This document shows, piece by piece, positions 34,854 to 56,432 of a DNA stretch of 64,000 bases. The DNA is from Roseinatronobacter alkalisoli (GTDB lineage Bacteria; Pseudomonadota; Alphaproteobacteria; Rhodobacterales; Rhodobacteraceae). The stretch covers positions 124,001 to 188,000 of the forward strand of contig NZ_JAQZSM010000005.1 in the NCBI RefSeq assembly GCF_028745735.1, given 5' to 3'. Both the position numbers and the translations under genes were made by a program. The notes beneath the pieces were generated by a model, which made no database searches, was not told the origin of the DNA, and saw only the letters and a list, made by a program, of their open reading frames with translations. Each line of letters starts with the position of its first letter. Positions within the stretch are counted from its first letter, which is position 1.

Positions 34854-35085
34854 GCATCGAATAATGAAATACATTCACTTCCAGTACCAGTCCAAATTCG
34901 GCATGGTCAGTATTACGGCCTTTGGGAGGAGGCAGACGATCAGTCGGGGAAGGAGGCCCCGGGATCGCATCATTCCCTGAACCCGCTCAGCTATGGGCGC
35001 TGAACTCCTGACGCCGAATTTCGCACGGCGCGGCGCAATCGCGCAGCCCGACCAGATATGTCTGACTGCAAAACAGGAGTGCTTC

Positions 35086-36057
35086 ATGCCCCTTCGCAAA
35101 ATTATCCTTGGCAGTGTCGCTGCTTTCGCGTTCGTGCTGCCCGCAAATGCCACTGAACGGCTGCTGATTGGTTCTACATCGGCGTCGTCCAGTCATTACG
35201 GCTACTTCGTGGCTGTCGCCCAGCTTGTGAACGAACGCATCGCCGAAGTGGAGGCTTCGGTGGTCGAGACCGGCGCAACGCTTGACAACCTGCGGCGCAT
35301 TCAGCGTCGTCAGGTTGACCTTGGTCTTGTCACCACAAATGTCGCCCATCACGCCCTAGCCGGTACGAACGAATTCGCGGGGCAGCCTGTCGAAACGCAG
35401 CTATTGTGGGTCTATACGGCGGCCCCGCAGAACGTAGTTGTGCGCCGCGACGCCGGAATTACCGGCATGGACGAACTTGCGGGTAAGCGCCTTAATCCGG
35501 GCATACGCGGTTCGGCCACTGAACAGACATCAGAAGCAGTTTTCGCAGCGCTTGGGATCGAACCTGCCCATGTGCGCGGGTCCACCACCGATGTCGTCGA
35601 TATGATCAAGGACAACCGCGTGATCGGCTATGTGAAATCCGGCGCGGGGATGCGGCTTGATGCGTCCACCCTTGATATCGCGACATTCACACCAATCACT
35701 GTACTGAGCCTGACCGAAGATCAGCAGCAACGCCTGCGCGCCGAGATGCCCGACATTTCTATCGTCGGGATTCCGGCAAGTCCCGACGATGACATGCCAG
35801 CCTATACGACCTGGAGTTTCGGTGTTGGTGTCGCAGCAAGCCCGGATCTAAGCGAGGAAACCGCCTATCAGATCGTCAGGACGATCATGGAAGATGAAAA
35901 CGCGCAAGCGAATGCTATGGCTGAACTGCGCGGCGCCGATCTCGCTGATCTTACTGTGACCTATGGCACGATACCGTTGCATCCCGGCGCGTATCGTTGG
36001 TTCCGTGAACAGGGCATCGACGTGCCTGCACACCTGATGCCGGTATCGGCGAATTAA
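35086..36057 (+). CDS. TAXI-family TRAP substrate-binding protein
   Basis: A 323-residue binding protein of the TAXI type. The signal peptide ends near ANATER. Landmarks are IGSTSASSSHYGYFVAVAQLVNERI, TLDNLRRIQRRQVDLGLVTTNVAHHA and TGMDELAGKRLNPGIRGSATEQTSEAVFAALG. The start at 35086 follows ACAGGAG. It is directly upstream of the fused permease. TAXI systems that have been studied carry dicarboxylates or glutamate; the substrate here is unknown. Confidence 0.92.
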   Translation: MPLRKIILGSVAAFAFVLPANATERLLIGSTSASSSHYGYFVAVAQLVNERIAEVEASVVETGATLDNLRRIQRRQVDLGLVTTNVAHHALAGTNEFAGQPVETQLLWVYTAAPQNVVVRRDAGITGMDELAGKRLNPGIRGSATEQTSEAVFAALGIEPAHVRGSTTDVVDMIKDNRVIGYVKSGAGMRLDASTLDIATFTPITVLSLTEDQQQRLRAEMPDISIVGIPASPDDDMPAYTTWSFGVGVAASPDLSEETAYQIVRTIMEDENAQANAMAELRGADLADLTVTYGTIPLHPGAYRWFREQGIDVPAHLMPVSAN

Positions 36058-36093
36058 GGTAACGACTGGCAAGCGGCCATTGCGGGGACAGAC

Positions 36094-37971
36094 ATGCGTG
36101 AAACCCTTTCCAGGGGACTTGCCCTGACGATCGGATTGTTCGTCTTCTACACGGCCGCCACCGGCCCGTTCGAAAGCCTGATCCAGCGCGCGCTCTTTCT
36201 TGCGCTGGTTGTAAGCCTCGGGTTGACAATTTACCCGTTGGGCGCCGGCACCCGCTGGCGCCCGGTCGGGCTTGCGGTCGATCTGGCGCTTGCGGCGGTG
36301 ACGCTTGCGGCCTGCGGCTACATCGTCATGAATTATGATGCGATCATGACGTCCCTGCCTTGGGCGACGATGACCGACAAGATGCTTACTGCCGGGCTGG
36401 TCGTGGCGCTGCTTGAAACCGGCAGGCGCGCGGTTGGTCTGATCTTTCCTGTACTGGTGATTGCCGGTCTGGCCTATGCCCTGCTTGGCCATCAACTGCC
36501 CGGCGCGCTGGGGCATCGCGGTTTTGACGCGGATTTCGTGACAGAGACGATTTTCCTGAGTGACCTTGGCGTCTGGGGCATGCTGGTCGGTATTGCATCC
36601 ACGGTCATTGCTGCTTTCGTTCTGTTCGGCGCGCTGTTGCTGCATACCGGGGGTGGTCAGGCATTCATGGACCTTGCCATGCGCCTTGGCGGCAGAAGTC
36701 CGGGCGGCGCGGCCAAGATTGCCACTATTTCCTCTGGCTTATTCGGCATGGTCAGCGGCAGCGCAGTCGCCAATGTCGCGACCACCGGAAATTTCACCAT
36801 CCCGATGATGAAGCGCCTTGGCTATCCACGCCCCTTCGCCGCCGCAGTGGAGGCCGTCGCATCAACCGGCGGTCAGATCGCACCGCCGATCATGGGTGCT
36901 GCCGCCTTCGTGATGGCTGAAATCCTTGGCGTCAGCTATCTGACCGTCATGGTTGCAGCTATCCTGCCAGCCATGCTTTTCTACGTTTCTGTTTTCGTCA
37001 CTGTCCACATTACGGCGGTCCGTCGCGGTCTGAAGATCGTGCCGGAGGATGAACTTCCGGCATGGCGCGATATCGTGGCACCCCGGCGTATGTTGCCGAT
37101 TGTCGCCGCACTCGGCCTTCTGTTCACGGGTATTTTCCTGGGGCGTTCCATCGCGACTGCAGCGTTCTGGGGCATCATGGGCTTGCTGGTGGCCTTTGCC
37201 ATTACCCGTGCCGGTCGCATGCCCCTGCGTGACATGGCCGGGCGCGTGCTGGATGGCTTCGGGGATGCGGGGCGCGGGCTTGTCATCATCGGCGTGTTGC
37301 TTGCCGGTGCGCAGATCCTTGTTTCCATGATCAACCTGACCGGCATCGGCGTCACGCTCAGTTCGATGATAGTCCAGCTGGCGGGTGACCGAACCTTCTT
37401 TGTGGCGCTGATCGTTGCGGGCGTCTGTCTGATCATGGGTATGGGTCTGCCGACGACGGCGGCCTATGTTCTGGTCGCTGCGGTACTGGCCCCCGCGATG
37501 ACGGCGGTTGGTGTCGAACCACTCGCGGCGCATATGTTCGTGTTCTATTTTGCGACGCTTTCGGTCATCACCCCGCCGGTCTGTGTGGCGGTGTTCGTGG
37601 GCGCAGGCATCGCCGGTACCAACTGGTTACCAGCGGCAGTGGAGGCCGTTCGCCTGGCTGCGGTGGTTTATATAGTCCCCTTCATGCTGCTGCTCTATCC
37701 CGGAATGGTCGGGCAGGGCGGGGGCCTTGCGATTGCGGAAGCCGCGATATCGGGGCTGGTTCTGGTGATTGCGGTTCCGGGCTTGCTAAGTGGCCAGCCC
37801 CTTTTGGGCCACAGGGCGTTTGATGCAGCGCTGTATCTTGCAGCGGTCGCCCTTGCAATCACGCCCCACTGGGGCGGCCCGCCCCTTGCGCTTGCGTTGC
37901 TTGCGTGTGGTTTCTGGCGGCGCCGCATGACCGTCAGACAACATCGTGCAACCGCACCGCAGGAAGGGTGA
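36094..37971 (+). CDS. TRAP transporter fused permease (4TM/12TM, TAXI type)
   Basis: A 625-residue fusion of DctQ-like and DctM-like parts with about 17 helices. The segments SSGLFGMVSGSAVANVATTGNFTIPMMKR and EAVASTGGQIAPPIMGAAAFVMAEILG, and later MGMGLPTTAAYVLVAAVLAPA, are the family markers. The 3' end overlaps the longest reading of the next gene, whose better start at 37976 lies four bases after the stop. It forms the Na+-dependent transporter with the binding protein upstream. Confidence 0.93.
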   Translation: MRETLSRGLALTIGLFVFYTAATGPFESLIQRALFLALVVSLGLTIYPLGAGTRWRPVGLAVDLALAAVTLAACGYIVMNYDAIMTSLPWATMTDKMLTAGLVVALLETGRRAVGLIFPVLVIAGLAYALLGHQLPGALGHRGFDADFVTETIFLSDLGVWGMLVGIASTVIAAFVLFGALLLHTGGGQAFMDLAMRLGGRSPGGAAKIATISSGLFGMVSGSAVANVATTGNFTIPMMKRLGYPRPFAAAVEAVASTGGQIAPPIMGAAAFVMAEILGVSYLTVMVAAILPAMLFYVSVFVTVHITAVRRGLKIVPEDELPAWRDIVAPRRMLPIVAALGLLFTGIFLGRSIATAAFWGIMGLLVAFAITRAGRMPLRDMAGRVLDGFGDAGRGLVIIGVLLAGAQILVSMINLTGIGVTLSSMIVQLAGDRTFFVALIVAGVCLIMGMGLPTTAAYVLVAAVLAPAMTAVGVEPLAAHMFVFYFATLSVITPPVCVAVFVGAGIAGTNWLPAAVEAVRLAAVVYIVPFMLLLYPGMVGQGGGLAIAEAAISGLVLVIAVPGLLSGQPLLGHRAFDAALYLAAVALAITPHWGGPPLALALLACGFWRRRMTVRQHRATAPQEG

Positions 37972-41586: not shown

Positions 41587-42933
41587 TCAGTTATCGCAGC
41601 CCTGGCTGGCTTTGCGGTCGGCGATGCGTTTGCGGTCGGCTAGTGTGTTCCAACCATCATTTCGGCGACCAGTTGGCTCATAGCGAGAACGCTGCTTTCC
41701 CGCCCGGCGTTTCTTTGGCGGTGTCTTGTCCTGTTCCGCTTTGATGTGCTCCAACACTGCGCTCAAGTGCTTGTTCTCAGTGATTGCCGCATGGGTAACG
41801 CGCTGATCCTTGTCGAAGACGGAGTAGGGGAGCGAGACACCCTTCCAGCGGAATTCCAGACGGCCGTCCGGAAACTCGTAGCTGTCGACATATTTACCGG
41901 GCAGGCCGCGCGTGATTTCATTCTCTTGCAAGATGATCCGCAGCCGCTGGTAGGAAAAGGCCAGTTGCTGGCCGACATAGCGTTCATCGCGCAAGCACAG
42001 AATATCCGCCAGCCGATCCGGCGCCACATTCAGCGCGCGATGCAGATCGTTCGGGCGGCGCGGGGCCTTGGCGAACTTGGCGTTGTAGCGGTCAATAAAA
42101 TCCGGAAGGAAAGCATTTGCGGCTTCCATGTCCGAGATGCCCGCCAGGCGTAACTCTTTCACCAGCCGATCCTGAAGCGTCCGGTTCGCGCGTTCAACAC
42201 GACCCTTGGCCTGCGAGCTGTTCGCGCACAAGATCTCGATGTTGAACTCGTTCAAAACCCGGCCGAACTGGGTCATGCCATGGCCTGACTTCGCGCCTTG
42301 GTTTGCTACGCGGAACACTGTGTGCTTGTCGCTGTAGAACGCCACCGGGCGTCCATGCGCATGCAGATAAGCTTCCAGCGCGCCGAAGTAGCTGAATGTG
42401 CTCTCAGACGGCACGAACTCCAGATGCATCAACGTGCTGGTCGCATCGTCGATGAAGACAAGCAACGTGCAGGGAGGGCCGCGATCTTCAAACCAGTGAT
42501 GATCCGATCCGTCGATCTGGATCAATTCGCCATAGCATTCCCGGCGTAATCGTGGCTGATGGAATGTCCTGCGTTGTCTGCGCGACAACCAGATCCCGGC
42601 ATCCTGCATCCACTTGCGCAGCGTCTCGCGCGAGACTTTAAACCCATGATGCTCGGCCAGCATCTCCGCCGCCAGGGTCGGCCCAAAGTCGGGATAGTTG
42701 TCTTTGATCAGCGACAGCGCGTAATCCTGTTTGGCTTTGTGGATGCGATTGTTCGGGGGCTTGCCGCGCGCCTTGTGCCGAATCGCCGACGCGCCATCCT
42801 GACGATAAAGCTTCAACAGCCGGAAAATCTGCCGACGCGTCAGTGCCAGCATGTTCGCAGCATTGTCGACGCTCAGCCGTCCATCATCGACCTGCGCCAA
42901 AACCTCCACGCGGTTCAACTCGCGCTCGCTCAT
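41587..42933 (-). CDS. ISNCY-family DDE transposase
   Basis: A 448-residue transposase counted from ATG 42933; the frame is open to 42954. An N-terminal helix-turn-helix (LSVDNAANMLALTRRQIFRLLKLYRQDG) is followed by a second DNA-binding domain (ETLRKWMQDAGIWLSRRQRR), then the integrase core with Asp in LIQIDGSDHHWF, Asp in VAFYSDKHTVFR, and Glu in SSQAKGRVERANRTLQDRL. A basic C-terminal tail (KKRRAGKQRSRYE) ends it. All core acidic residues are intact, and no stop or frameshift is seen, so the element may still be active. Confidence 0.92.
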   Translation of the reverse strand: MSERELNRVEVLAQVDDGRLSVDNAANMLALTRRQIFRLLKLYRQDGASAIRHKARGKPPNNRIHKAKQDYALSLIKDNYPDFGPTLAAEMLAEHHGFKVSRETLRKWMQDAGIWLSRRQRRTFHQPRLRRECYGELIQIDGSDHHWFEDRGPPCTLLVFIDDATSTLMHLEFVPSESTFSYFGALEAYLHAHGRPVAFYSDKHTVFRVANQGAKSGHGMTQFGRVLNEFNIEILCANSSQAKGRVERANRTLQDRLVKELRLAGISDMEAANAFLPDFIDRYNAKFAKAPRRPNDLHRALNVAPDRLADILCLRDERYVGQQLAFSYQRLRIILQENEITRGLPGKYVDSYEFPDGRLEFRWKGVSLPYSVFDKDQRVTHAAITENKHLSAVLEHIKAEQDKTPPKKRRAGKQRSRYEPTGRRNDGWNTLADRKRIADRKASQGCDN

Positions 42934-42978
42934 AACCACCCATCCCATGCCCAATCTCCCTCAGTCTCGGAAGGGAGA

Positions 42979-44336: not shown

Positions 44337-45056
44337 TCAGGTCGGGCTTTTACGCAGGTCAACCAGAACACCGCCGAACAACCTGCTGCGGGAATGTTCG
44401 ATATGGCTGAACATTTCCTGCTGTGCCACGCGCGCATTTCCGGCTTCTATCGCATCATGAATGCGGCCATGTTCGTCCAGCACCTGTTGCAGGCTTTGCT
44501 GCCCGTCACGCAGCAATGACTGGCCATGCATTTTCATTCCGACCGCGATGTTTTCGTGCAAGGCGCGCAACGTCGCTTCAAAGAAAAAGTTGTTCGCCGC
44601 CCGGGCAACGGCAAGATGAAAGGCGAAATCCGCATCTTCGCGGTGGGTCATTGACCCTGTCGCCGCGCGCATCAGGTCCAGCGCGCGCGACAATTCCGCC
44701 AGTGCGACCGGGTCGCGCCGTTCTGCGGCCAATGCGGCCGCCTGCGGTTCAATTGTCAGGCGGAATTCATAGCAGCGCTGGATATCGGAAATGGTTTCAA
44801 CCTTGCCATATCCCAAAGGCCTTTGCATTCGCGTGGTCACAAAGCTGCCTGCGCCCTGACGGGAACTGACAAGCCCTTCTTCGCGCAGTCGTTCCAGCGC
44901 ATCACGCAGCACAGGGCGGGAAATGCCCAGTTCTTCGGACAGCGCAGTTTCCGGCGGTAGTTTCTGGTCCGGCAGGTAATCCCCGTTCGCAATCCGGCTG
45001 TAAATCGTATGATAAACGCGTTCAGCCAGATTTGTGCGTGGCTTTTGTTGGGACAT
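44337..45056 (-). CDS. GntR-family regulator, FadR/FCD subgroup (TAXI-TRAP/BNR cluster)
   Basis: A 239-residue regulator with the winged helix at about residues 8-78 (LAERVYHTIYSRIANGDYLPDQKLPPETALSEELGISRPVLRDALERLREEGLVSSRQGAGSFV) and an FCD domain (ADFAFHLAVARAANNFFFE, EHGRIHDAIEAGN). It is the last gene on the strand after SBP-permease-BNR, 128 bases downstream of the BNR gene, so it likely controls that set. The ligand would be the imported acid or a catabolite. Confidence 0.9.
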   Translation of the reverse strand: MSQQKPRTNLAERVYHTIYSRIANGDYLPDQKLPPETALSEELGISRPVLRDALERLREEGLVSSRQGAGSFVTTRMQRPLGYGKVETISDIQRCYEFRLTIEPQAAALAAERRDPVALAELSRALDLMRAATGSMTHREDADFAFHLAVARAANNFFFEATLRALHENIAVGMKMHGQSLLRDGQQSLQQVLDEHGRIHDAIEAGNARVAQQEMFSHIEHSRSRLFGGVLVDLRKSPT

Positions 45057-45184: not shown

Positions 45185-46303
45185 CTACCCGTCACGCAGC
45201 GCGGTTTCAGGAACAACCATATGGCGGATGGTCTGGCGAAAATGGGTGTAGGTGACATGAAGCTGGCCATCGCTTGTCTGCAAGATGGCGGGATAGGACA
45301 ATTCGCGGTTGATCTGCTCCTCGGAATTGTTCGACAGGCAATACCCGTCGCTGAAAGCCAGATCGATGCGCTTGTCCCATGTCTGACCGCCATCGGATGA
45401 CAGCGCCAGTGACAAGGGTGCGCGCGGCGCCCCCCAGAAGGCACGGCCAGCCGGGGCCTGTGGCTGATCGGCGCTGCTGTCATCCTCTATCTCATCATAA
45501 AGGGAAACGCGCCGCCCCTGCGCATCGGCGCGGCTGGCATGATTATAGACCAGCGCCACGCGCCCGCCTGCAAGCCGTGTTGCCTGAACCGATGAATTGT
45601 TGTTTGGCAGGCCCGCAGGTTCCGGCATGCTCCATGACCGGCCCGCATCATCGGATGTGCAGCGATAGACATGTTCGGCCCAACGGCTGCGGAAAAACGC
45701 CACCATATGCGGCCCGTCCAAGGGAACGATATTCATATGCACGCAACCTGCGGACTCCGCCAGAACATGTTCGTGCCATGTCGCACCCTGATCCATGGAC
45801 ACCATGATTGCGGCGTCATCCGCTTCGCCTGTCCATGGCAGGTCGCCTTGTTTCAGGCAACGAAACACCGGTAATAGCCAGCGCCCGTCTGCAGTGACAA
45901 CCGGTGTCTGGCGTACGAAACGCCCCAGTTCCGGGAAAAGCTGCTTGGGCGGTGACCAGCTTTCACCCATATCCAGCGACAGGCGATAGCGCACCTGCGC
46001 GTCATTCTGGCGGCCACCCGGCTGGGCGGTATAAATCAGCCAAAGGCGATTTTCAGGGTCCAGAAACAGAACGGGGTTCTGTTCTGACCGGTCCGGGTCA
46101 TCCGACATCTGTTGCGCGGGGGTCCACCCCTGAGCGCCAAGCCGTGACATGAAGATGGATATGTCGGGTTTTCCTTCCATCGTGCCCCCGAACCATGCGC
46201 AGAGCAACCCGCCATCGGGTAATTCGCACAGGAATGATGCATGGTTCTGGACCCGCGTTGTTGGCAGGTCTGTTGTGGGGAAGGCAGTGTCAGGTTGGGT
46301 CAT
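45185..46303 (-). CDS. Sialidase-like BNR-repeat hydrolase, cytoplasmic
   Basis: A 372-residue beta-propeller with four Asp-boxes (S-x-D-x-G-x-S/T-W): residues 109-116 SLDMGESW, 169-176 SMDQGATW, 217-224 SDDAGRSW and 302-309 SSDGGQTW. The N-terminal FRIP motif of true sialidases is missing: the equivalent site reads CAWFGGTMEG. There is no signal peptide, so the protein acts in the cytoplasm. It belongs to the BNR_2/sialidase-like group of unknown specificity. It lies 23 bases after the fused TRAP permease and probably cleaves an imported glycoside or conjugate. Confidence 0.85.
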   Translation of the reverse strand: MTQPDTAFPTTDLPTTRVQNHASFLCELPDGGLLCAWFGGTMEGKPDISIFMSRLGAQGWTPAQQMSDDPDRSEQNPVLFLDPENRLWLIYTAQPGGRQNDAQVRYRLSLDMGESWSPPKQLFPELGRFVRQTPVVTADGRWLLPVFRCLKQGDLPWTGEADDAAIMVSMDQGATWHEHVLAESAGCVHMNIVPLDGPHMVAFFRSRWAEHVYRCTSDDAGRSWSMPEPAGLPNNNSSVQATRLAGGRVALVYNHASRADAQGRRVSLYDEIEDDSSADQPQAPAGRAFWGAPRAPLSLALSSDGGQTWDKRIDLAFSDGYCLSNNSEEQINRELSYPAILQTSDGQLHVTYTHFRQTIRHMVVPETALRDG

Positions 46304-46326
46304 GTGCGGTCTCCGCCAGATATGAT

Positions 46327-48219
46327 TCAGGTGCGTGCAAGGGCCAGACGGTCACGCAGGATCAGCCGCCATAACAACAGTACCCCGATCCCTGCCAGTG
46401 ACAGGCCCCAACCCGGCGACAATGTGGGCAACAGAACCAGCGCAAGGCTGCAGGTCAGAAACAGCGCGCGTTCGATATAGCCCAGATTGCCCTTCATCCA
46501 GCCCATCAGGAACACCGCCCAGGCGAATGTCGCCAGCAGCATGCCGCCTGCGCCGATACCGATTTCAAGCGCCGTACCCTGCCACAATATATGCGGGTCG
46601 TTGATGAAGCCGAAAGGCACCAGAAAGATGACCAGCGAATACCCGAAGGCCAGCAGGCCGGTCTTGCTGGCATCTGACCTGGCAATGGCCGATGCGGCAT
46701 AGGAACACAGCGCCACAGGTGGGGTTACCATCGACAGCACGCAGTAATACAGAACGAACAGATTGGCCGCCAGCCGGTCAATGCCCAGTTCCATCAACGC
46801 GGGGACAAACACCAGCGATCCGATGATATAGGCCGCCACCGTGGGCAGCCCCATCCCCATGATGATGCAGCCGAAAATTACCAGCACCAGCGACAGATAC
46901 AGATTGCCGGACCCGATATCGGACAGCAGCCGCACGAATTTCAGTGCCAGGTTCGATTGCGTCGCAATCACCATGACAACGCCGACTGCTGCCAGCGGTG
47001 CGGAAATCCACGCCATCTGTCTGGCGGTGTCCAGCACGCAATCAAACAACCCACGCAGGCTGTAGCGGGTCGATTTGCGCAGCATTGGCACGACCAGTGC
47101 GGCAGCGGTACCCGCAAGCGCGGCATATGCGGCGGAATATCCGACAATCAGCGTGACAATCATGACCACTGGCGCAAGCAACAGGTGCACACGCGGCAGC
47201 ACTGGCGGGATATTCAGCAATTCAGGCGCAACATTTCCCACGCCGTATTTGCGCGCGCGCAGATCCACGATGACAAACAGCGCAAAATAGAATGCCAGTG
47301 CAGGGATCAGCCCCGCAGCCGCAATGGTGGCATAGGGTATCCCCAGCATATCTGCCATCACGAATGCCGCGACCCCCATGATAGGCGGCATCAATTGCCC
47401 GCCGGTGGACGCGATGGCTTCCGTCGCGGCGGCCTGATCCTTGGTGTAGCCCGAACGTGTCATGATGGGGATGGTCAGAACACCGGTCGATGTCGTGTTG
47501 GCAATGGCCGAGCCTGACACCATGCCAAACAGCGCTGAGCCGACCAGCGACATCTTTGCCGCCCCGCCCTTCAGCCTTGCGGTCATGCGCATGGCAAGGT
47601 CGATGAACAGTGCGCCGCCGCCAGTGAAGGTGAACACGGCCCCGAACAGCACGAAGAAAAACACGAAATTGATGGCGGCACTGGCTGTGATGCCAAAAAT
47701 GCCTTCGGTCTGCATGGTTATAAGTTCGGCATTCGTAGCCAGACTGAAACCGGGGAAAGCCATCCAGCCGGGGAAGATATAGCCGAAATACCCATAGGCC
47801 AGAAATATCAGGACAACACTGAGCAAGGACCAGCCAACGGACCTGCGCACGGCCTCGAATATCAGCACCAGCCCCGTGACATGCAGGAAAATATCCAGTG
47901 CAAAGACCGGATCAATCATTTCAAACCGGCGCTCAAGGCGACGGATTTCGCCCATGTAAAGCCAGACAATGGCAAGCGACAGCACCACTGCCGACAAGTC
48001 GATCGCGCGGCCCAACAGCCGCTTTGCAGCGCCTTCCCAGTTCAGCGGATTGAACGCAAAAACCAAGGCCACCGCCATGTAGACATGAAAGGATGCGGCC
48101 GCCAGCGGGGCGACCGGTTGCCAGAACTGGCGCAGCAGGAAGCCAACATAGACAAAGGACAGCACGATCTGAAATAACCGCAGTATCATGTCGAAGGTCA
48201 GGAAATTCCGGGCGGTCAT
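46327..48219 (-). CDS. TRAP transporter fused permease (TAXI type)
   Basis: A 630-residue DctQM fusion, from ATG 48219 behind AGGAGGA. Family markers include LVGSALFGMVSGSAIANTTSTGVLTIPIM, AIASTGGQLMPPIMGVAAFVMADMLG and GMGLPTVAAYIIGSLVFVPALMELG. Roughly 17 helices are visible. It follows the TAXI binding-protein gene after a hairpin and precedes the BNR gene. Confidence 0.93.
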   Translation of the reverse strand: MTARNFLTFDMILRLFQIVLSFVYVGFLLRQFWQPVAPLAAASFHVYMAVALVFAFNPLNWEGAAKRLLGRAIDLSAVVLSLAIVWLYMGEIRRLERRFEMIDPVFALDIFLHVTGLVLIFEAVRRSVGWSLLSVVLIFLAYGYFGYIFPGWMAFPGFSLATNAELITMQTEGIFGITASAAINFVFFFVLFGAVFTFTGGGALFIDLAMRMTARLKGGAAKMSLVGSALFGMVSGSAIANTTSTGVLTIPIMTRSGYTKDQAAATEAIASTGGQLMPPIMGVAAFVMADMLGIPYATIAAAGLIPALAFYFALFVIVDLRARKYGVGNVAPELLNIPPVLPRVHLLLAPVVMIVTLIVGYSAAYAALAGTAAALVVPMLRKSTRYSLRGLFDCVLDTARQMAWISAPLAAVGVVMVIATQSNLALKFVRLLSDIGSGNLYLSLVLVIFGCIIMGMGLPTVAAYIIGSLVFVPALMELGIDRLAANLFVLYYCVLSMVTPPVALCSYAASAIARSDASKTGLLAFGYSLVIFLVPFGFINDPHILWQGTALEIGIGAGGMLLATFAWAVFLMGWMKGNLGYIERALFLTCSLALVLLPTLSPGWGLSLAGIGVLLLWRLILRDRLALART

Positions 48220-48263
48220 TGGCGTCCTCCTGTTGCATGGGTGCCGGCACGGGCGGGTAGCAA

Positions 48264-48292
48264 GCCGCCGCCGCAATCGCTGCGGCGGCGGC
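48264..48292. promoter_or_regulatory. Intercistronic hairpin between TAXI binding protein and permease genes
   Basis: GCCGCCGCCGCA at 48264-48275 pairs perfectly with TGCGGCGGCGGC at 48281-48292 around ATCGC. It stands in the 90-base gap of the operon; no T-run follows on the coding strand. Confidence 0.75.
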
Positions 48293-48309
48293 CCGTCATG
48301 CCTGACGGA

Positions 48310-49311
48310 TCATTCGATCCAGCCGCGTTCGCGGTAATAGCGCGCGGCACCTTCATGCAGTTCGATCACCGCCTGATCAGGCTGCGCCCCTGCTTGCGGA
48401 TCCCAGTCTGCCAGCGCAGGATAGGCTTCTGCAATCGCGTCGCGTTGCTCGACCAGCGCTTTGGTCACCTGATAGATGACATCTGCCGACACGTCCTTGT
48501 TTGCAATCAGGATGGTGGCCGATGTCGGGTTCACGTAATCCCCGTCCTGCCCCGGATAGCTGCCAGCGGGCATAGGACCGGCAGGTGCGCCAAGTGCTGT
48601 CATATGATCAAGCACTTCCTGCGGGAAGGGAATGAATACCATGTCGGTTGTCAGTGTCACCTCGGTCATGGTCGCCTGTCCAACGGGCGAGTTTTCGATA
48701 TACACATCTGCTGTGCCGTCGCGCAGCATCTGTGCAATCTGTGCCGTGCTGATCTGGGTGATTGCGCCCTTGTCGCGCATGTCTTCAAGGCCGGACCCCA
48801 TGGCCTCGAACATGTAATCGGCCATGATGGGCACTTGTGACCCCTGCGGTTTCATGACGATGGTCGGATAATCCGGGCCGGCCATCATTGCTTCCAACGT
48901 GTCTTTTCCGGTGCTTTCGACATAAGCCTTGCGCGCGGCGATTGTGGAATGCGCGATCTGCAAGCCGCCGACGACTGCGCGGATATCCTCGCTTTTGCGA
49001 CCCTCGAAATCCTCGCCAATGCCATCGCGCGCCCAGACTGCGGCATTCGCGGATGCAAATGCCAGATCGGCCACGCCCTGACTGGCTGCGACCGGGTTTG
49101 TCATGCCACCCCCACGCGGCAGAACTTCAACCGCAATGTTGAAATCCCCGTCTGATGCGGAAATGATTTCTCCGAAGGTTGATCCGTAGGAATACCAGCT
49201 GCTGCCCGGCGCCTGACTGATCAGACTAAGCGCGACATCTTCGGCCAGCACAGGCTGCGCCAATACGGCAAATGTTGCCGCGGCGGCTATCTGCTTCACG
49301 TTTATATGCAT
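48310..49311 (-). CDS. TAXI-family TRAP substrate-binding protein (second)
   Basis: A 333-residue periplasmic protein. Start ATG 49311 behind GTGGAGGAAAGA. The signal peptide ends near VLAED. TAXI landmarks: LISQAPGSSWYSYGSTFGEII, GGGMTNPVAASQGVADLAFASANAAVWARDG. It heads the operon SBP-permease-BNR-(gntR). It differs clearly from the TAXI protein at 35086-36057, which has no such spacer hairpin to its permease. Confidence 0.92.
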   Translation of the reverse strand: MHINVKQIAAAATFAVLAQPVLAEDVALSLISQAPGSSWYSYGSTFGEIISASDGDFNIAVEVLPRGGGMTNPVAASQGVADLAFASANAAVWARDGIGEDFEGRKSEDIRAVVGGLQIAHSTIAARKAYVESTGKDTLEAMMAGPDYPTIVMKPQGSQVPIMADYMFEAMGSGLEDMRDKGAITQISTAQIAQMLRDGTADVYIENSPVGQATMTEVTLTTDMVFIPFPQEVLDHMTALGAPAGPMPAGSYPGQDGDYVNPTSATILIANKDVSADVIYQVTKALVEQRDAIAEAYPALADWDPQAGAQPDQAVIELHEGAARYYRERGWIE

Positions 49312-49641: not shown

Positions 49642-50781
49642 ATGGTTTTGGGGCATATCGACATGATGAGACGCGTGATCGAGGTTTTGCAACCGCAGCG
49701 CCTGCAAACTGGCACCGGGGCGGCGGGTTTTGTGGCCGGGCTTTTGGCAGACACGGGGCGCACCCGCCCTGTCGTGATTGCGGATGCATTCAATGCGACG
49801 CGGCTGGATGCGCTTGGGCTTGACCCTGCGACACCGTGCCACCCGGTTGCACCGGAGCCTGACACTGATGGGTTGGCAGGCGCATTGCAGGCCGCCCGCG
49901 CGGCACAACCGGATGTTATTATCGGGTTTGGCGGCGGCAGCGCCATGGATATGGCGAAACTGGTTGCTGTCATGGTCGGCAACTCCCTTGGCTTTGACGA
50001 CGTCAGCGGACCGGGGCGCGCGCCGTCCCGCAGTGTCATGCTGGTTCAAGTGCCCACCACCGCCGGAACCGGAAGCGAGGCAGGCACCCGCGCCCTGCTG
50101 ACCGAACCCGGAACCATGCGCAAAATCGCCACGGAAAGTCCGCATATGCTGGCGGATCTGGTGGTTCTTGACCCCGAACTTACCCTGTCCCTGCCGCCTG
50201 CAATCACGGCCGCGACAGGTATTGATGCGCTGGCGCATTGTGTCGAAGTCTTTACCAGCCGCCGCGCCCATCCGATGATCGACGGATTCGCATTGCAAGG
50301 AATCCGGCTGATTGGCCAGAACCTGCATAACGCGGTGCATAACGGCAATGACAGCAGCGCACGCGCGGCGATGCTGCTGGCATCCTATTATGGTGGGGTC
50401 GGGCTTGGACCGGTGAATACGACCGCAGGGCACGCAGTAGCTTATCCGTTGGGCACCCGTCATCACCTGCCGCATGGTCTGGCCAATGCGTTGATTTTCC
50501 CGCATACATTGGCTGCGAACTTGTCAGAATGCCCTGAAAAGACCGCGCAGATATGTGATGCGCTTGGATTTGCGGCAACAGATGAGGCGGCGGTACGCGA
50601 CGGGGCAATCGCATGGTGTGAATCGCTGGGGCTGGATATGTGCCTGCGTGCGCATAATGTCCCGGAAACCGACCTGCCGGAAATGGCTGCCGAAGCGCAT
50701 GCAATCCGCCGGTTGCTGGATTTCAACCCGCGCGATCTGTCAGCCGGTGACATTCTGGAACTGTACAAGGCCGCCTATTGA
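49642..50781 (+). CDS. Iron-containing alcohol dehydrogenase
   Basis: A 379-residue group III (Fe-dependent) dehydrogenase. The nucleotide loop is IGFGGGSAMDMAKLVAVMV, followed by PTTAGTGSE. Metal ligands are in GIDALAHCVE (Asp, His) and in AGHAVAYPLGTRHHLPHGLANA (two His). Family members oxidise alcohols or reduce maleylacetate and hydroxy-aldehydes. It opens a three-gene operon with pdxA2 and an SDR, divergent from the TAXI cluster. It may take part in stepwise oxidation of a polyol or sugar acid. Confidence 0.92.
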   Translation: MVLGHIDMMRRVIEVLQPQRLQTGTGAAGFVAGLLADTGRTRPVVIADAFNATRLDALGLDPATPCHPVAPEPDTDGLAGALQAARAAQPDVIIGFGGGSAMDMAKLVAVMVGNSLGFDDVSGPGRAPSRSVMLVQVPTTAGTGSEAGTRALLTEPGTMRKIATESPHMLADLVVLDPELTLSLPPAITAATGIDALAHCVEVFTSRRAHPMIDGFALQGIRLIGQNLHNAVHNGNDSSARAAMLLASYYGGVGLGPVNTTAGHAVAYPLGTRHHLPHGLANALIFPHTLAANLSECPEKTAQICDALGFAATDEAAVRDGAIAWCESLGLDMCLRAHNVPETDLPEMAAEAHAIRRLLDFNPRDLSAGDILELYKAAY

Positions 50782-50835
50782 TACAGTGCCTTTACACCCA
50801 TACGGGCCAGTGCCCAGCCTGAAACGGAGAAACGC

Positions 50836-51837
50836 ATGCACACCACCCCCATCGCCATTACCATCGGCGACCCGTCCGGCGTTGGTGCCGAAGTGACCCT
50901 GCGCGCCGCCGCTGAACTGCCTGCCGCACGCCGCGCCGGTCTGGTGGTGGTGGGCGACCGCGCAGTGCTGGAGCGCGCGAAGGCGGCCTGCAACATTGAC
51001 CTGCCGCTGGTGAACTGGGATGCGGCGGAAAAGCCCGATGGCGCGCTTATGCTGCGCCACGTTCCTTGCGACGGGTTGCCGGATACATTCGGCGTACTGT
51101 CCCCGGCCTGTGGCGAAGCGGCCTATCGTTATATCAAGACTGCTGTGGACATGGTGCAGTCCGGTCACGCCGCAGGCATGGTCACTGCCCCCATCAACAA
51201 GGAAGCGCTGAACGCCGCCGGTCATCACCATGACGGGCATACCGGCCTGCTGGCGCATCTGACCGACCAGCGGGGCGCATGGATGCTACTGGCATCGGAA
51301 CGGCTGAATGTCATTCATGTCTCAACACATGTTGCGCTGCGCGATGCGATCACCCGCGCGACCCCGGACCGCATTCTGCAAACCATCCGCACAGGTCATG
51401 CGCATATGCAGCGCATGGGGCTGAACCGGCCGCGCATTGCGGTTGCAGGCATTAACCCCCATTGTGGCGAAGCGGGCCTGTTCGGGCGCGAAGATGATGA
51501 TCAGGTTGTCCCCGCCGTTGCCGCGGCCCGCGCCGAAGGCATTGACGTCACCGGCCCCATTTCCGCGGATACCGTCTATCACCGCGCCTATAACGGGGCG
51601 TTTGATCTGGTTGTGGCGCAATATCATGATCAGGGGCATATCCCCATCAAGCTGGTTGCCTTTGATACGGCGGTCAATGTCTCGCTGGGACTGTCGATCG
51701 ACCGCAGTTCCGTCGATCATGGCACCGCGTTTGACATTGCCGGAACCGGCAAGGCCAATCATGCAAACATGATCTGCGCCATTGATTACGCGCTGCGGCT
51801 GGCCAATGCGCCGCGCCGGGCGGATGGCGCGCAATGA
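50836..51837 (+). CDS. PdxA-family 4-phospho-acid dehydrogenase (PdxA2-like)
   Basis: A 333-residue protein of the PdxA family, starting with [21 protein letters not shown]. Metal-binding and substrate motifs are [25 protein letters not shown], and [16 protein letters not shown]. It lacks the usual pyridoxine neighbours (pdxJ, ksgA), and in catabolic operons PdxA2 enzymes oxidise and decarboxylate 4-phospho-threonate or 4-phospho-erythronate. The DUF1537 kinase usual to those pathways is not in this window. It overlaps the following SDR gene as ATGA. Confidence 0.9.
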
Positions 51838-52511
51838 CCAAACGCGCGCTGGTCACCGGCACCAGTTCCGGCATTGGCCATGCTATTGCCCGCGACCTGC
51901 TGGCGGATGGCTGGCATGTGACCGGGCTTGCCCGCCGCGGGCCGAGTTTCGACAGCGCAGCCTATAGTCATGTCCCGGTTGATCTGGCCAATGCCGATGC
52001 CACGCAAGCCGCGATTGCGGAACTGCCCGTGCCGGATGCACTGATCCATGCTGCGGGATTGCTGCGTGTCGGCGCCTTGGCGGATATGGACAGGGCTGAC
52101 GGTGCGCGGATGTGGCGCTTGCATGTAGATTGCAGCGCGCAGCTTTTGCAGCATTTCGGCCCGCGCATGGCAAATGGGGGGCGGGTTGTGTTGTTGGGCA
52201 GTCGCGTGTCCACCGGCGCAAAGGAAAAGGCGCTTTATGCAGCGTCCAAGGCAGCGTTGGACGGATTGGCGCGATCCGTTGCTGCGGAACTTGCCCCGCA
52301 GGGGGTGACGGTGAATATCGTGGCACCGGCGGCCACGGACACACCGATGCTGGCCGACCCGGCGCGCGCGTCCTTCAGCCCTGCCCTGCCCCCGATGGGC
52401 CGCCTGATTGACCCGACAGAGGTGTCGGGAACCGTGTTGTTCCTGCTGTCACCCGCAGCGGCATCCATGACCGGCCAGAGGCTGGTTATCTGCGCGGGCG
52501 CATCGCTATAA
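51834..52511 (+). CDS. SDR-family oxidoreductase (third gene of Fe-ADH operon)
   Basis: A 225-residue classical [11 protein letters not shown] (residues 8-15) binds the nucleotide, the catalytic Ser is in LLGSRVS and YAASK holds the Tyr-x3-Lys. [13 protein letters not shown] gives the usual turn to the C-terminus. The stop is 48 bases before the stop of the next, convergent SDR gene. Its substrate is unknown; three different dehydrogenases in one operon suggest sequential oxidation. Confidence 0.9.
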
Positions 52512-52559: not shown

Positions 52560-53327
52560 TTACATTCCGCCCGATTGCGCGCGCAGTGCAGGCAGGCCCA
52601 CGCCAACCGCATCAAACCCGCCATCCACCGCAATGGTCTGGCCGGTAACATAGCTGGCCCTGTCGGAGCACAGGAACGTAATCACCTCTGCAATCTCGAA
52701 CTCGGTGCCATAGCGGTTCAGGGGGATGGCATCATGATAGGCCGCGCGGATTTCCGGTGAATGCACCGCCAGCGCAAGTTTCGTATCCACTGGTCCCGGT
52801 GCCACGCAATTGGCGCGGATGCCCCATTCACCCAGTTCCGCCGCCTGCTGACCCGTCAACTGGATGACAGCTGCTTTGGACGTGCCATAGGCCACCCGCA
52901 ATGTGCTGGCGCGCAGCCCCGAAATGGATGCGATATTCACAATCGCCCCGCCCCGCTGTTTCAGATGCGGGATAACCGCCTGCGATGTCAGGAAAACCCC
53001 GTCAAGATTGACCGCCATCACCTGACGCCAGATTGCGAAATCAGTGTCGGCCAGCGAGCGGAAATCAGCAATGCCGGCGTTATTGACCAGCGCATCCATG
53101 CGCCCGAAGTGATCCAGCACCTGCTGAACCATGGCGTCAACCTGGTCAGGAACGGACACATCGCAGGCAACCGCATGGGCACCATCAAGGCCCTTTGCGG
53201 CATCTTTCAGCGCGGACGTGTCGCGGTCAATCATCGCCACACGCCAGCCCTGCGCCAGAAACAGGCGCGTTGTCGCCAGGCCAATGCCGCGTGCAGCCCC
53301 GGTTACGATTGCTGTTTTCAGTGTCAT
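52560..53327 (-). CDS. SDR-family oxidoreductase (downstream of dctPQM)
   Basis: A 255-residue classical SDR. TGAARGIG (9-16), NNAG, IASISG with the Ser, and YGTSK with the Tyr-x3-Lys are complete. TVAVDGG and the family end are present. It lies 28 bases after dctM on the same strand, so it is a late member of the TRAP operon and may oxidise the imported compound. No cofactor specificity is readable beyond DRD after strand two, which favours NAD(H). Confidence 0.9.
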   Translation of the reverse strand: MTLKTAIVTGAARGIGLATTRLFLAQGWRVAMIDRDTSALKDAAKGLDGAHAVACDVSVPDQVDAMVQQVLDHFGRMDALVNNAGIADFRSLADTDFAIWRQVMAVNLDGVFLTSQAVIPHLKQRGGAIVNIASISGLRASTLRVAYGTSKAAVIQLTGQQAAELGEWGIRANCVAPGPVDTKLALAVHSPEIRAAYHDAIPLNRYGTEFEIAEVITFLCSDRASYVTGQTIAVDGGFDAVGVGLPALRAQSGGM

Positions 53328-53355: not shown

Positions 53356-54690
53356 TCAGCGCAACCAGTGCAGCAGGATCTGCGACATCGACGGCACTGC
53401 CGCGACAATCGCAATCCCCACCAGACTTGCCAGCAGGAACGGCAGTGCCCCGCGCGCGACGTGTTCAATCTTCATACGGGTGACATTGGCTGCCACATAC
53501 AGGTTGATGCCGACAGGCGGCGTAATCAGCCCGATCGCCAGATTGACCATGACCAACACCCCGAACCACACCGGATCCCAGCCCATTTCGCGCGCAACCG
53601 GCAGGAATATAGGCAGTGCAATGAACATCACCGTCACAGGGTCCATGAACATGCCCGCAACCAGCAGGATCACCATGATGACCAGCAGGATGACCCATTC
53701 ATTCTGACTTAGCCCCAGCAATGCGCCGGAATAGCTGCGCACCAGATCATCGACAGTGACCACCCAACCAAACAAGCTGGCATAGGCGACAATCAGCATG
53801 ACAACCGCCGATGACGCCGCCGCTGTTCCCAGTGCATCATAAAGGTTACGCAGGCTTAATGTTCGGTAGGCCAGTGCCCCCACTGCCAGCGCATAGACCG
53901 TGGCCACAAGTGCGGCCTCTGTCGGGGTGAAGATGCCGGAATATATGCCGCCCAGAATGACAACTGGCGTCATCAGCCCCCAGAAACTGTCACGGAAACT
54001 AAGCCACAGCCTGCGCGCGCGGGCCTCATCCGCATAGGGTTCGGGCATCAGCGCTGCCAGGCTGGGGCTGCGGGACGGGGCATTGCGGCGGCGTGCAAAA
54101 GGCAGCACGGCAACCATGGTCAAGGCCATGAACACACCCGGAATGATGGCCGCAATGAACAACCGCGAGATGGATGTTTCCGCGATGACCCCGTAAATCA
54201 CCAGCCCGATGGATGGCGGGATCACGATGGAAAACGCAGCGCCCGTACAGACCAGCCCCGCGGCAAAAGCGCGGTCATAGCCGTCTTCTTCCATGCCCTT
54301 GATGATCATCGGGCCTATTGCCGCAACCGATGCAGGGCCGGACCCGCTGACCGCGCCCCAGAACAGGCAGACCACGGTTCCCACAACCCCCATCCCGCCG
54401 GGCAGGCCACCCACAGCAACACGGAAAAACCGGATCATCCGCTCGGCAATGCCAAGACTGCCCATCAGCGTGCCCGCCAGAATGAAGAACGGAATGGCCA
54501 GCAACGAAAATTTGGTAATGCCGGTGGCAATCAGGTCACCTGCCAGCTCCAGCCCAAAACCGATTTTCCACATGGCGTAAAGTGCGGATAACCCCAGCGC
54601 AAAAGCCACTGGCAGGCGCAGCGCCATCAACAGGAAGAAAATGATGATCATCTGCGTGCCAACTGATGAAATGCCAATGAATTCAAACAT
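53356..54690 (-). CDS. dctM: TRAP transporter large permease (DctM family, second)
   Basis: A 444-residue permease with about 12 helices. GAVSGSGPASVAAIGPMI, IPPSIGLVIYGVIAETSISRLFIA, and LITPPVGINLYVAANV are family landmarks. The ATG at 54690 lies inside the end of the dctQ gene (eight-base overlap). It precedes the SDR gene. Substrate is unknown. Confidence 0.93.
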   Translation of the reverse strand: MFEFIGISSVGTQMIIIFFLLMALRLPVAFALGLSALYAMWKIGFGLELAGDLIATGITKFSLLAIPFFILAGTLMGSLGIAERMIRFFRVAVGGLPGGMGVVGTVVCLFWGAVSGSGPASVAAIGPMIIKGMEEDGYDRAFAAGLVCTGAAFSIVIPPSIGLVIYGVIAETSISRLFIAAIIPGVFMALTMVAVLPFARRRNAPSRSPSLAALMPEPYADEARARRLWLSFRDSFWGLMTPVVILGGIYSGIFTPTEAALVATVYALAVGALAYRTLSLRNLYDALGTAAASSAVVMLIVAYASLFGWVVTVDDLVRSYSGALLGLSQNEWVILLVIMVILLVAGMFMDPVTVMFIALPIFLPVAREMGWDPVWFGVLVMVNLAIGLITPPVGINLYVAANVTRMKIEHVARGALPFLLASLVGIAIVAAVPSMSQILLHWLR

Positions 54691-55171
54691 CTGGCATGCT
54701 TTCTTCATCTTTTCCTTTAAGCACATCCCAGGCATGCTGCAAATAGCGCAGGATGATCAGGCCAAACCCGAAGGGCAGCGCCGCCTGATAGTACCAGGCC
54801 GGGATGCCCAGCCCGTAGGACCGCATGCCGACGCGCTTGATATTCATCATGGCGTCCCATGAAAACCACGCCGACAGCGCCAGCAATCCCACCGACAACA
54901 GGACCGACAGCAAAAATACCGGCACCCACAACAGGCGCGGCAACATATCATGCACCAATGTCACCGCCAGATGCTCGCCCCGCCGCGCCGCCAGTGCCGC
55001 ACCGAAAATGGTCAGCAACAGAAACCCGTTGACCAGTAATTCCTCGCTTGCGGCAAAGGACAGGTTGGTGCCGTAGCGCACCACGACATTGGCAAACCCC
55101 AACAGCGTCATGCCCAGAAACAGAATTGCGCAGATGATCTTCTCGGCGTCGCGCAAAAGGAAATGTAACAT
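54683..55171 (-). CDS. dctQ: TRAP transporter small permease (DctQ family, second)
   Basis: A 162-residue protein with four helices, starting LHFLLRDAEKIICAILFLGMTLLGFANVVVRYG. The start at 55171 avoids the long upstream frame that runs through the hairpin. Ordinary DctQ length, unlike the extended one at 18489. It overlaps dctM by eight bases and lies behind an intercistronic hairpin after dctP. Confidence 0.9.
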   Translation of the reverse strand: MLHFLLRDAEKIICAILFLGMTLLGFANVVVRYGTNLSFAASEELLVNGFLLLTIFGAALAARRGEHLAVTLVHDMLPRLLWVPVFLLSVLLSVGLLALSAWFSWDAMMNIKRVGMRSYGLGIPAWYYQAALPFGFGLIILRYLQHAWDVLKGKDEESMPDV

Positions 55172-55195
55172 CTGTCGCCGCCCCGCTAAGAAATA

Positions 55196-55224
55196 TCCCA
55201 CGGCCCCGAGCGGGGGCCATGGGA
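55196..55224. promoter_or_regulatory. Intercistronic hairpin between dctP and dctQ (second system)
   Basis: TCCCA(C)GGCCCC at 55196-55207 pairs with GGGGCC(A)TGGGA at 55213-55224 with one mismatch. Same operon position as the hairpins at 19224, 26087 and 48264. Confidence 0.65.
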
Positions 55225-55236
55225 CAGAATTAAGCC

Positions 55237-56241
55237 TTAGTTGGCAGCGGAGATCGCGTCCTGAAACGCGCCCACAATTTCCGGGCCCACACGCTCGGCC
55301 CATTGGTCAAACGCCGGTTGGGTTGCAGTGCGGAATGCGGCCAGTTCGTCAGCGCTGGGTTCATAGACTTCCATGCCCTGTTCGCGCAGGAACGCGATGC
55401 CTTGCGCCGTTCCTTCGCGGGTGATTTCGCGCTGATAGGCCATGGCGTCCTGTGCAGCCTCGCGCAGGATGGCTTGCATGTCTGCATCATAGCTGTCCCA
55501 TTTTGCCTTGGAAATGCCAAGGAAAATGGGGTCATAGGAATAATGCCACGCGGTCAGGTGCTTTTGCACTTCATAAACCTGCTGGGGAATGATCACAGCC
55601 CCGATGGGGTTTTCCTGACCATCCACGACACCCTGTTGCAGCGCCGACATGGTTTCGCCCCACTGCATTTGCTGTGGGTTGGCCCCAAGCGCGTTCATGA
55701 CGTCAATATACATCGGCCCTGCCACGCGCATGTTCAGCCCGCGCATGTCTTCGGGGCTGCGAATGGGGCGGACATTGTTTGTCACTTCACGGAAGCCGTT
55801 TTCACCCCATGCCAGCACGACAATGCCCTTGTCCAGCAGGATATCGGCCAGCATTTCGCCGGGCGCGCCCTGGGTTGTGGCATCAACCTGTTCATAGTTG
55901 GCATACAGGTAAGGCAATGAGAATACAGCCATTTCCGGCACCAGCGGCGTGACGTTGATGGCAGAGGTCACAACCAGATCCAGCGCGCCGCGCCCGACCA
56001 TTTCCGCCTGCCGCATCTGGTCGCCGCCCGAAAGCTGCGCATTGGGGAAAACCCGCACATCCAGCGCACCATCTGTGCGTTCGGCCAGCAATTCCCCGAA
56101 CTTTTCAGCGCCCTGATGCCAGGTTGTCGTGTCGCCGGTATTATGTGACAGGCGCAGGGTTTCCGCCCCCGCCGCCCCAAGGCCAAGCATGCCGGCCAAT
56201 GCGGCAGCAAGTGCTGTCCCGCTTACGCGTGCAAATGTCAT
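55237..56241 (-). CDS. dctP: TRAP transporter substrate-binding protein (DctP family, second)
   Basis: A 334-residue binding protein. Start ATG 56241 behind AAAAGGAGGAGAAC. The signal peptide ends near AAGAET. DctP features: LSHNTGDTTTWHQGAEKFGELLAERTDG, SPEDMRGLNMRVAGPMYIDVMNALGANPQQMQWGETMSALQQGVVDGQENP. Heads the operon dctPQM-SDR, divergent from an IclR regulator that is its probable controller. Confidence 0.93.
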   Translation of the reverse strand: MTFARVSGTALAAALAGMLGLGAAGAETLRLSHNTGDTTTWHQGAEKFGELLAERTDGALDVRVFPNAQLSGGDQMRQAEMVGRGALDLVVTSAINVTPLVPEMAVFSLPYLYANYEQVDATTQGAPGEMLADILLDKGIVVLAWGENGFREVTNNVRPIRSPEDMRGLNMRVAGPMYIDVMNALGANPQQMQWGETMSALQQGVVDGQENPIGAVIIPQQVYEVQKHLTAWHYSYDPIFLGISKAKWDSYDADMQAILREAAQDAMAYQREITREGTAQGIAFLREQGMEVYEPSADELAAFRTATQPAFDQWAERVGPEIVGAFQDAISAAN

Positions 56242-56432
56242 GTTCTCCTCCTTTTGGTGTTCTGCGGTCTGCACATGACATCGCACAAACCGCCCCCTCC
56301 GTAGCGTTCATATAGTGGACCCGTCATTTTCCGGATTGCAAGAAAAACTTGCAACCTTGAAAAGAAAAAATAACAATGCCAATACCAGATGAATATCTGA
56401 TGCGGACATATTCGCAAGTATGGGTTCATATT

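Follow-up and report, generated by a model that had tools for sequence, protein, structure and literature searches.

We analysed a window of 64,000 nucleotides from Roseinatronobacter alkalisoli (positions below are counted from its first letter), in which a tripartite ATP-independent periplasmic (TRAP) importer of the TAXI type lies beside a sialidase-fold propeller and divergently from enzymes of a putative acid-degrading pathway. The minus-strand genes at 45185–49311 encode a TAXI-type TRAP solute-binding protein (48310–49311; TIGR02122 TRAP_TAXI, 118 bits with a cut-off of 84; PF16868), a fused TAXI-TRAP permease (46327–48276; TIGR02123 TRAP_fused, 486 bits, cut-off 321) and the propeller (45185–46303; PF13088 BNR_2, E 1.1e-67), which is apparently cytoplasmic and lacks the arginine of the RIP motif. 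A preliminary description of this DNA had placed a TAXI-TRAP importer beside a BNR propeller at 45185–49311, and the open reading frames (ORFs), with the positions given there, together with TIGR02122, TIGR02123 and PF13088 bear this out. The ORF of the binding protein stays open to 49431, and a start at 49311 yields a leader. Beyond the propeller lies a GntR/FCD regulator (44337–45056, minus strand). On the plus strand (49642–52511) follow an iron-containing alcohol dehydrogenase (Fe-ADH; 49642–50781; PF00465 and PF25137), which we propose as a semialdehyde reductase, a PdxA-family dehydrogenase that is PdxA2-like by its structure matches (50836–51837; PF04166), and a short-chain dehydrogenase/reductase (SDR) of 225 residues (51834–52511; PF13561), an optional member of the cluster.

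Of 295 genomes in the same family, 12 have a relative of the propeller. Relatives were also found in 313 plasmid records, none of them reaching 60% identity, and in the genome_contigs collection, from which the best 80 of 587 confirmed relatives were taken. Using home-made profiles, we classed the genes of 101 loci, all of which have the propeller: 80 genome loci, ten regions of plasmids, ten from genomes of the family, and the window itself. Several are relatives within Pectobacterium, Arthrobacter and Roseomonas, and the loci are thus not independent. A kinase or PdxA was present in 89 of the 101, an aldolase in 86 (68 of the dihydrodipicolinate synthase (DHDPS) type and 18 HpcH/HpaI) and a reductase in 91 (Fe-ADH 75, aldo/keto reductase 17, GarR-like 3, with two reductases in some loci). 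All three classes, hereafter the core, occurred together in 78 propeller loci, compared with none of twenty control stretches of 19 kb, taken at arbitrary places in seven of the same-family genomes (12 of the 20 from one contig); the controls held no kinase or PdxA, one aldolase and two reductases. Among loci of at least 18 kb, 67/83 had all three classes. The SDR was found in 64 loci and was absent from 30 of the 78 complete ones, and a YhcH protein, nearest to sialic acid anomerase, was found in 15. The sole Firmicutes locus (L102) has no core genes, and the core is thus seen in two phyla. One further locus, L123 (G067:C50), was left out of the 101; it looks like a cluster in decay, with its propeller, Fe-ADH and GntR genes each broken into two ORFs, next to matches for kinase, PdxA and DHDPS.

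In Proteobacteria, the propeller is repeatedly surrounded by relatives of the importer and of the Fe-ADH, PdxA and SDR genes; in Actinobacteria such relatives recur too, but aldolase and reductase come from other families. Specifically, no DHDPS-type protein or Fe-ADH was found in the 14 actinobacterial loci; 12 have an HpcH/HpaI aldolase with an aldo/keto reductase, and two the latter only. HpcH/HpaI proteins are also found in six other, non-actinobacterial loci, and their nearest NCBIfam models are the 2-dehydro-3-deoxyglucarate and 4-hydroxy-2-oxoheptanedioate aldolases (below cut-off). Of the three loci with a GarR-like match, two are from Vreelandella and lack Fe-ADH, and the third (L088) has Fe-ADH as an additional reductase. 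Unrelated families in the same slots argue that the reactions are those of a pyruvate aldolase and an aldehyde reductase. The core is well supported by this step replacement and by co-inheritance, and the data support that the importer, the propeller and the divergent Fe-ADH, PdxA and SDR genes belong together.

In R. alkalisoli itself, the kinase and the aldolase lie on other contigs than the propeller locus. The genome has one DUF1537 kinase (G000:C38), whose neighbouring GntR regulator shares 57% identity with the one at 44337. A DHDPS-type protein of the genome (G000:C42) matches the cluster aldolases of L118 and L033 at 70.5% and 59% identity, respectively. L033, a Rhodospirillales metagenome-assembled genome with the best-scoring propeller of the 80, has an undivided layout, in which PdxA, kinase and Fe-ADH diverge from the TAXI binding protein, permease, propeller and aldolase. 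The preliminary description had connected the divergent Fe-ADH, PdxA2 and SDR genes with the importer and propeller; the recurrence of their relatives agrees with this, but the set here is incomplete, with kinase and aldolase elsewhere, and the SDR is optional. Within the family, 11 of the 12 genomes with the propeller also have the kinase, against 3 of the 283 that lack the propeller (Fisher p 1.4e-16, uncorrected for phylogeny); the narrower aldolase group (E 1e-80) was found in 7 of 295 genomes, five of them with the propeller. The window PdxA scored 262–285 bits to 6e85, 2hi1 and 4jqp (PdxA 2 / D-threonate 4-phosphate dehydrogenase) vs. 179 to E. coli PdxA (1ps7), and 296 of 583 bits to the D-threonate-phosphate model. 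A second PdxA is also present in the genome.

The importer varied among the propeller loci. We found oligopeptide-type ATP-binding cassette (ABC) systems in 39 of the 101 loci (the actinobacterial ones resting on weak matches), sodium:solute symporters (SSS) in 30, tripartite tricarboxylate transporters (TTT) in 29, another ABC type in four, TAXI in three and none of these in three. The importer is therefore interchangeable, TAXI being only one type. The TAXI binding protein of the window shares 69% and 62% identity with its counterparts in the only two other TAXI loci, and the permease 70–77% with those of L033 and L106; the three cases make up one subfamily. Twelve TAXI matches were obtained in the genome, and the eight others taken into comparison are at most 26% identical to the binding protein. 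Relatives of the permease at E 1e-100 were found in its own genome only, among 385 genomes of the class with at most three candidates scored per genome. L106 has an HpcH/HpaI aldolase after its TAXI pair, and a TTT system lies in the ~6 kb that separate this pair from the propeller. The link between TAXI and propeller thus comes from few genomes, since only three of the 101 loci have TAXI and the L106 pair stands that far off. A second TAXI system is also found in the window (34993–37971, plus strand), consisting of a binding protein (C76:159167–160015) and an ORF 37% identical to the TAXI permease.

The propeller of the window carries exactly four Asp boxes of the form S/T-x-D-x-G-x-x-W (residues 109, 169, 217 and 302). 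The window propeller and those of 58 among the 80 genome loci made up a set of 59 sequences (A2), and leaders were judged by a crude hydropathy proxy only. The hydropathy peak was 1.83 in the TAXI binding protein (start 49311), which has a hydrophobic leader by this proxy, and at most 1.56 (median 0.59) in the 59 propellers, so that on this measure the propeller apparently stays in the cytoplasm. An AlphaFold2 model built from the 59 sequences was confident (pLDDT 92.1, pTM 0.91) with the exception of residues 261–290. Among the 50 Foldseek matches listed, all were sialidases or putative neuraminidases except 4j9t (a designed protein) and 5hx0 (function unknown), and the TM-scores to 1eus were 0.73/0.75. 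Profile alignment to nine RIP-type sialidases with hhalign gave probabilities of 98.5 (local) and 99.2 (global). Homology to 5mqr, which we take to be a rhamnogalacturonan-II (RG-II) enzyme of B. thetaiotaomicron, was too weak (E 0.77 with one sequence, 0.025 with the profile) and was not used.

Residues were compared in a combined alignment of every second of the 59 clade rows (30 in total) with the nine sialidases; of 14 non-clade ORFs matched in the motif scan, five had been left out (two repeats, one protein in two loci and one without a plausible motif). The nucleophile Tyr337 and two arginines, Arg205 and Arg294 (Arg2 and Arg3), are kept in 30/30 clade sequences and 9/9 sialidases. The arginine of the RIP motif (Arg1) is present in 9/9 sialidases, and the window propeller has Asp12 in that column (MAFFT and global hhalign); the N-terminal alignment is uncertain, and an ungapped reading would place His21 there. 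No RIP motif was seen by eye in the window propeller, and the clade scan gave none except one unrelated C-terminal match. The acid/base aspartate (8/9 sialidases) aligns to Gly44, with the invariant Glu43 and Asp47 nearby, and the invariant residues R264, R265, Y269, N325, N332 and E334 sit in columns that are gapped in all nine sialidases. As the preliminary description had it, the propeller has four Asp boxes, no apparent signal peptide and no FRIP arginine, as judged from the count, from the proxy across A2 and from the motif scan and alignments, respectively. It shares the fold, Asp boxes, Tyr, Arg2 and Arg3 with sialidases of glycoside hydrolase family 33 (GH33), but differs from them in the missing RIP arginine, a histidine in place of the catalytic glutamate, clade-only insertions with invariant polar residues and the lack of an apparent leader. 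In our reading, this enzyme derives from a sialidase but serves a different acidic substrate; the name sialidase is unsuitable for it, and it may free an acid from an imported conjugate or lactone. Outside the clade, the Nonomuraea solani genome encodes two adjacent BNR_2 proteins (L137 and L143; 323 and 170 bits to the clade profile) with NHAA and VHAA instead of QNHA.

The core is also found without the propeller. Two of the three family genomes with a kinase but no propeller (L178 and L179) hold aldolase, PdxA, Fe-ADH, kinase and GntR regulator in one cluster, together with a binding protein of the TTT type. In the third (L180), the stretch examined contains kinase and PdxA but lacks both aldolase and Fe-ADH. 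Because the core stands alone in these two genomes, we place the propeller upstream of it, and it probably feeds the core.

If the aldolase releases pyruvate and an aldehyde, the reductase converts the aldehyde to an alcohol, and this alcohol is the four-carbon acid used by kinase and PdxA2, then a 3-deoxy-2-heptulosaric acid would be the starting compound, with a C4 semialdehyde acid as the aldehyde. By our own derivation in Fischer projection, the D-lyxo isomer would be converted to D-threonate by way of D-threuronate. Applied to 3-deoxy-D-manno-octulosonic acid, this rule yields D-arabinose. D-lyxo is the configuration described for 3-deoxy-D-lyxo-2-heptulosaric acid (Dha) in RG-II (PMC12168206), and this acid is also reported to occur in the scales of green algae and in the theca of Tetraselmis (PMC10762512). 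Judged by its gene families, the core fits this seven-carbon diacid, and Dha appears to be the best-fitting substrate. The preliminary description had proposed import and internal cleavage of a larger acidic glycoside or conjugate; the recurrence links importer, propeller and divergent genes as it supposed, but what the core fits is a seven-carbon diacid and not a generic glycoside or uronic acid.

The pathway that we propose would run in six steps. First, the TAXI system would import a Dha-containing substrate. Second, the sialidase-fold enzyme would release the ulosaric acid, perhaps using Tyr337 for a hydrolysis at C2, as suggested by its fold, its residues and the existence of the core without it. 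Third, the pyruvate aldolase (here the DHDPS-type protein G000:C42) would yield pyruvate and the C4 semialdehyde acid D-threuronate, which, fourth, Fe-ADH would reduce to D-threonate. Fifth, the DUF1537 kinase (here G000:C38) would phosphorylate D-threonate, and sixth, the PdxA2-like enzyme would oxidise and decarboxylate the phosphorylated product to dihydroxyacetone phosphate. Steps five and six follow the published D-threonate route as outlined in a review; we infer steps one to four. We hold this six-step reading, with Dha as the substrate, tentatively, at a probability of roughly 0.4.

A number of observations weigh against it. Every NCBIfam match that would define a step falls far short of its cut-off, and family scores alone prove no step. 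The kinase is nearest to the D-threonate kinase (DtnK) model at 88 of 450 bits, the GarL-type model was matched at 142 of 393 bits, the GarR-like enzyme is nearest to tartronate semialdehyde reductase at 182 of 397 bits, and the window Fe-ADH scores best to sulfoacetaldehyde reductase, again far below cut-off. The DHDPS-type protein of L033 is best to dapA (189 bits, just below the cut-off of 206), the cluster DHDPS proteins form two groups ~25–29% identical whose substrates may differ, and at 357 bits the window PdxA clears the cut-off (290) of the general PdxA equivalog model. The catalytic glutamate, present in 9/9 sialidases, is replaced by His189 in 30/30 clade sequences, and sialidase-like hydrolysis by the propeller is hence not assured. 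Five of the 101 propeller loci have no core gene nearby, no shared GntR operator was seen in the stretches examined, and no RG-II-degrading enzyme turned up, although no search aimed at such enzymes was made. Activity along the pathway is a prediction.

The replaced glutamate would also suit the best-surviving alternative, in which the same core acts on free imported heptulosarate and the propeller, instead of being a glycosidase, works as a lactonase, mutarotase or hydratase. The loci use SSS, TTT and TAXI importers, types known as small-acid carriers, and no aglycone-processing gene is common to them. However, the propeller keeps the nucleophile tyrosine and two arginines, and the YhcH protein of 15 loci gives anomerisation another candidate than the propeller; we consider this alternative unlikely. 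Less likely still is that the propeller splits one conjugate of which the aldolase and the kinase/PdxA pair take different pieces (e.g., a 2-keto-3-deoxy acid and a tetronate), the substrate then not being Dha. Such a split would be compatible with the two divergent DHDPS groups and with aldolase and reductase substrates inferred from family only, but aldolase, reductase, kinase and PdxA occur together in two genomes without the propeller, where nothing need be split.

Vitamin B6 salvage or 4-hydroxythreonine detoxification by kinase and PdxA has been proposed in the literature for related gene pairs: the kinase STM0162 is described as forming 4-hydroxythreonine phosphate (PMC10971088), and an E. 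coli paper assigns its kinase/PdxA pair to pyridoxal 5'-phosphate (PLP) synthesis (PMC12928451). The window PdxA, as said, passes the general PdxA model. Nonetheless, this explanation is very improbable for the present cluster, as it has no role for importer, aldolase, reductase or propeller, another PdxA exists in the genome, and PdxA2 is assigned to organic acid catabolism in PMC9997740. We rejected true sialic acid use (a cytoplasmic sialidase with a NanA-like lyase) as hardly tenable, despite the sialidase fold and YhcH in 15/101 loci, on the active-site residues (RIP arginine and catalytic glutamate not kept) and the aldolase scores (78 bits to NanA for the L033 protein, cut-off 382).

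The proposed Dha pathway resembles several known systems in part. In the D-glucarate/galactarate route (GarL aldolase, GarR reductase, GarK kinase), an aldolase likewise yields pyruvate and a semialdehyde acid, followed by reduction and phosphorylation, and HpcH/HpaI and GarR-like relatives fill the corresponding slots of some loci; our cluster would act on a substrate one carbon longer, ends in DUF1537 kinase and PdxA, and has the propeller upstream. With D-threonate catabolism (DtnK, PdxA2) it shares a DUF1537 kinase and a PdxA2-like enzyme, but here the pair sits behind an aldolase and a reductase, and the kinase reaches only 88 bits to the DtnK model. As in sialic acid (nan) gene sets, there is a sialidase-fold enzyme, a DHDPS-superfamily lyase and, in some loci, a YhcH anomerase relative; the active site is changed, however, the aldolase is far from NanA, and kinase and PdxA belong to another route.

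The cluster itself is already in print for E. coli and Sinorhizobium meliloti. As described in PMC12928451, GR6 of E. coli BEN2908 comprises a CitT-like protein, a YhcH relative, a COG4692 protein, a DapA-like protein, Fe-ADH, an OtnK-like kinase and PdxA2, and is compared with the pdxA-like cluster of S. meliloti. Both share the COG4692, DapA-like, Fe-ADH, OtnK-like and PdxA2 proteins with our loci but have a CitT-like or ABC importer, not TAXI. That paper, which cites Thiaville et al. 2016, ties the kinase/PdxA pair to PLP synthesis and, in its available sections, gives no substrate for catabolism. In the open-licence literature (subscription papers and preprints being mostly outside the search) we found no bacterial route for Dha carbon; likewise there, among the papers listed and with several listings ranked by title, we found no substrate for this gene cluster. 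Two papers mention COG4692, and no paper joined two of the terms heptulosaric, threonate, tartronate semialdehyde and Dha lyase. That the cluster, with aldolase, reductase, kinase and PdxA2, is the first complete bacterial Dha pathway, spanning Proteobacteria and Actinobacteria, is doubtful. Dha is described as a signature sugar of RG-II and of green-algal scales and thecae (PMC12168206, PMC10762512). If true, our reading would assign a role to many proteins of rhizobia, Pantoea, Azospirillum and other bacteria that now carry the annotation exo-alpha-sialidase, and a substrate to one TAXI subfamily; the pathway is predicted down to its stereochemistry and is thus directly testable.

Other genes of the window include, at 41587–42954 (minus strand), an ORF that, by its reading, resembles an integrase or transposase. 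Adjoining the locus on the other side is a DctM-type TRAP system with a DctP-like protein (53356–56286, minus strand), beside a further SDR (52560–53327).

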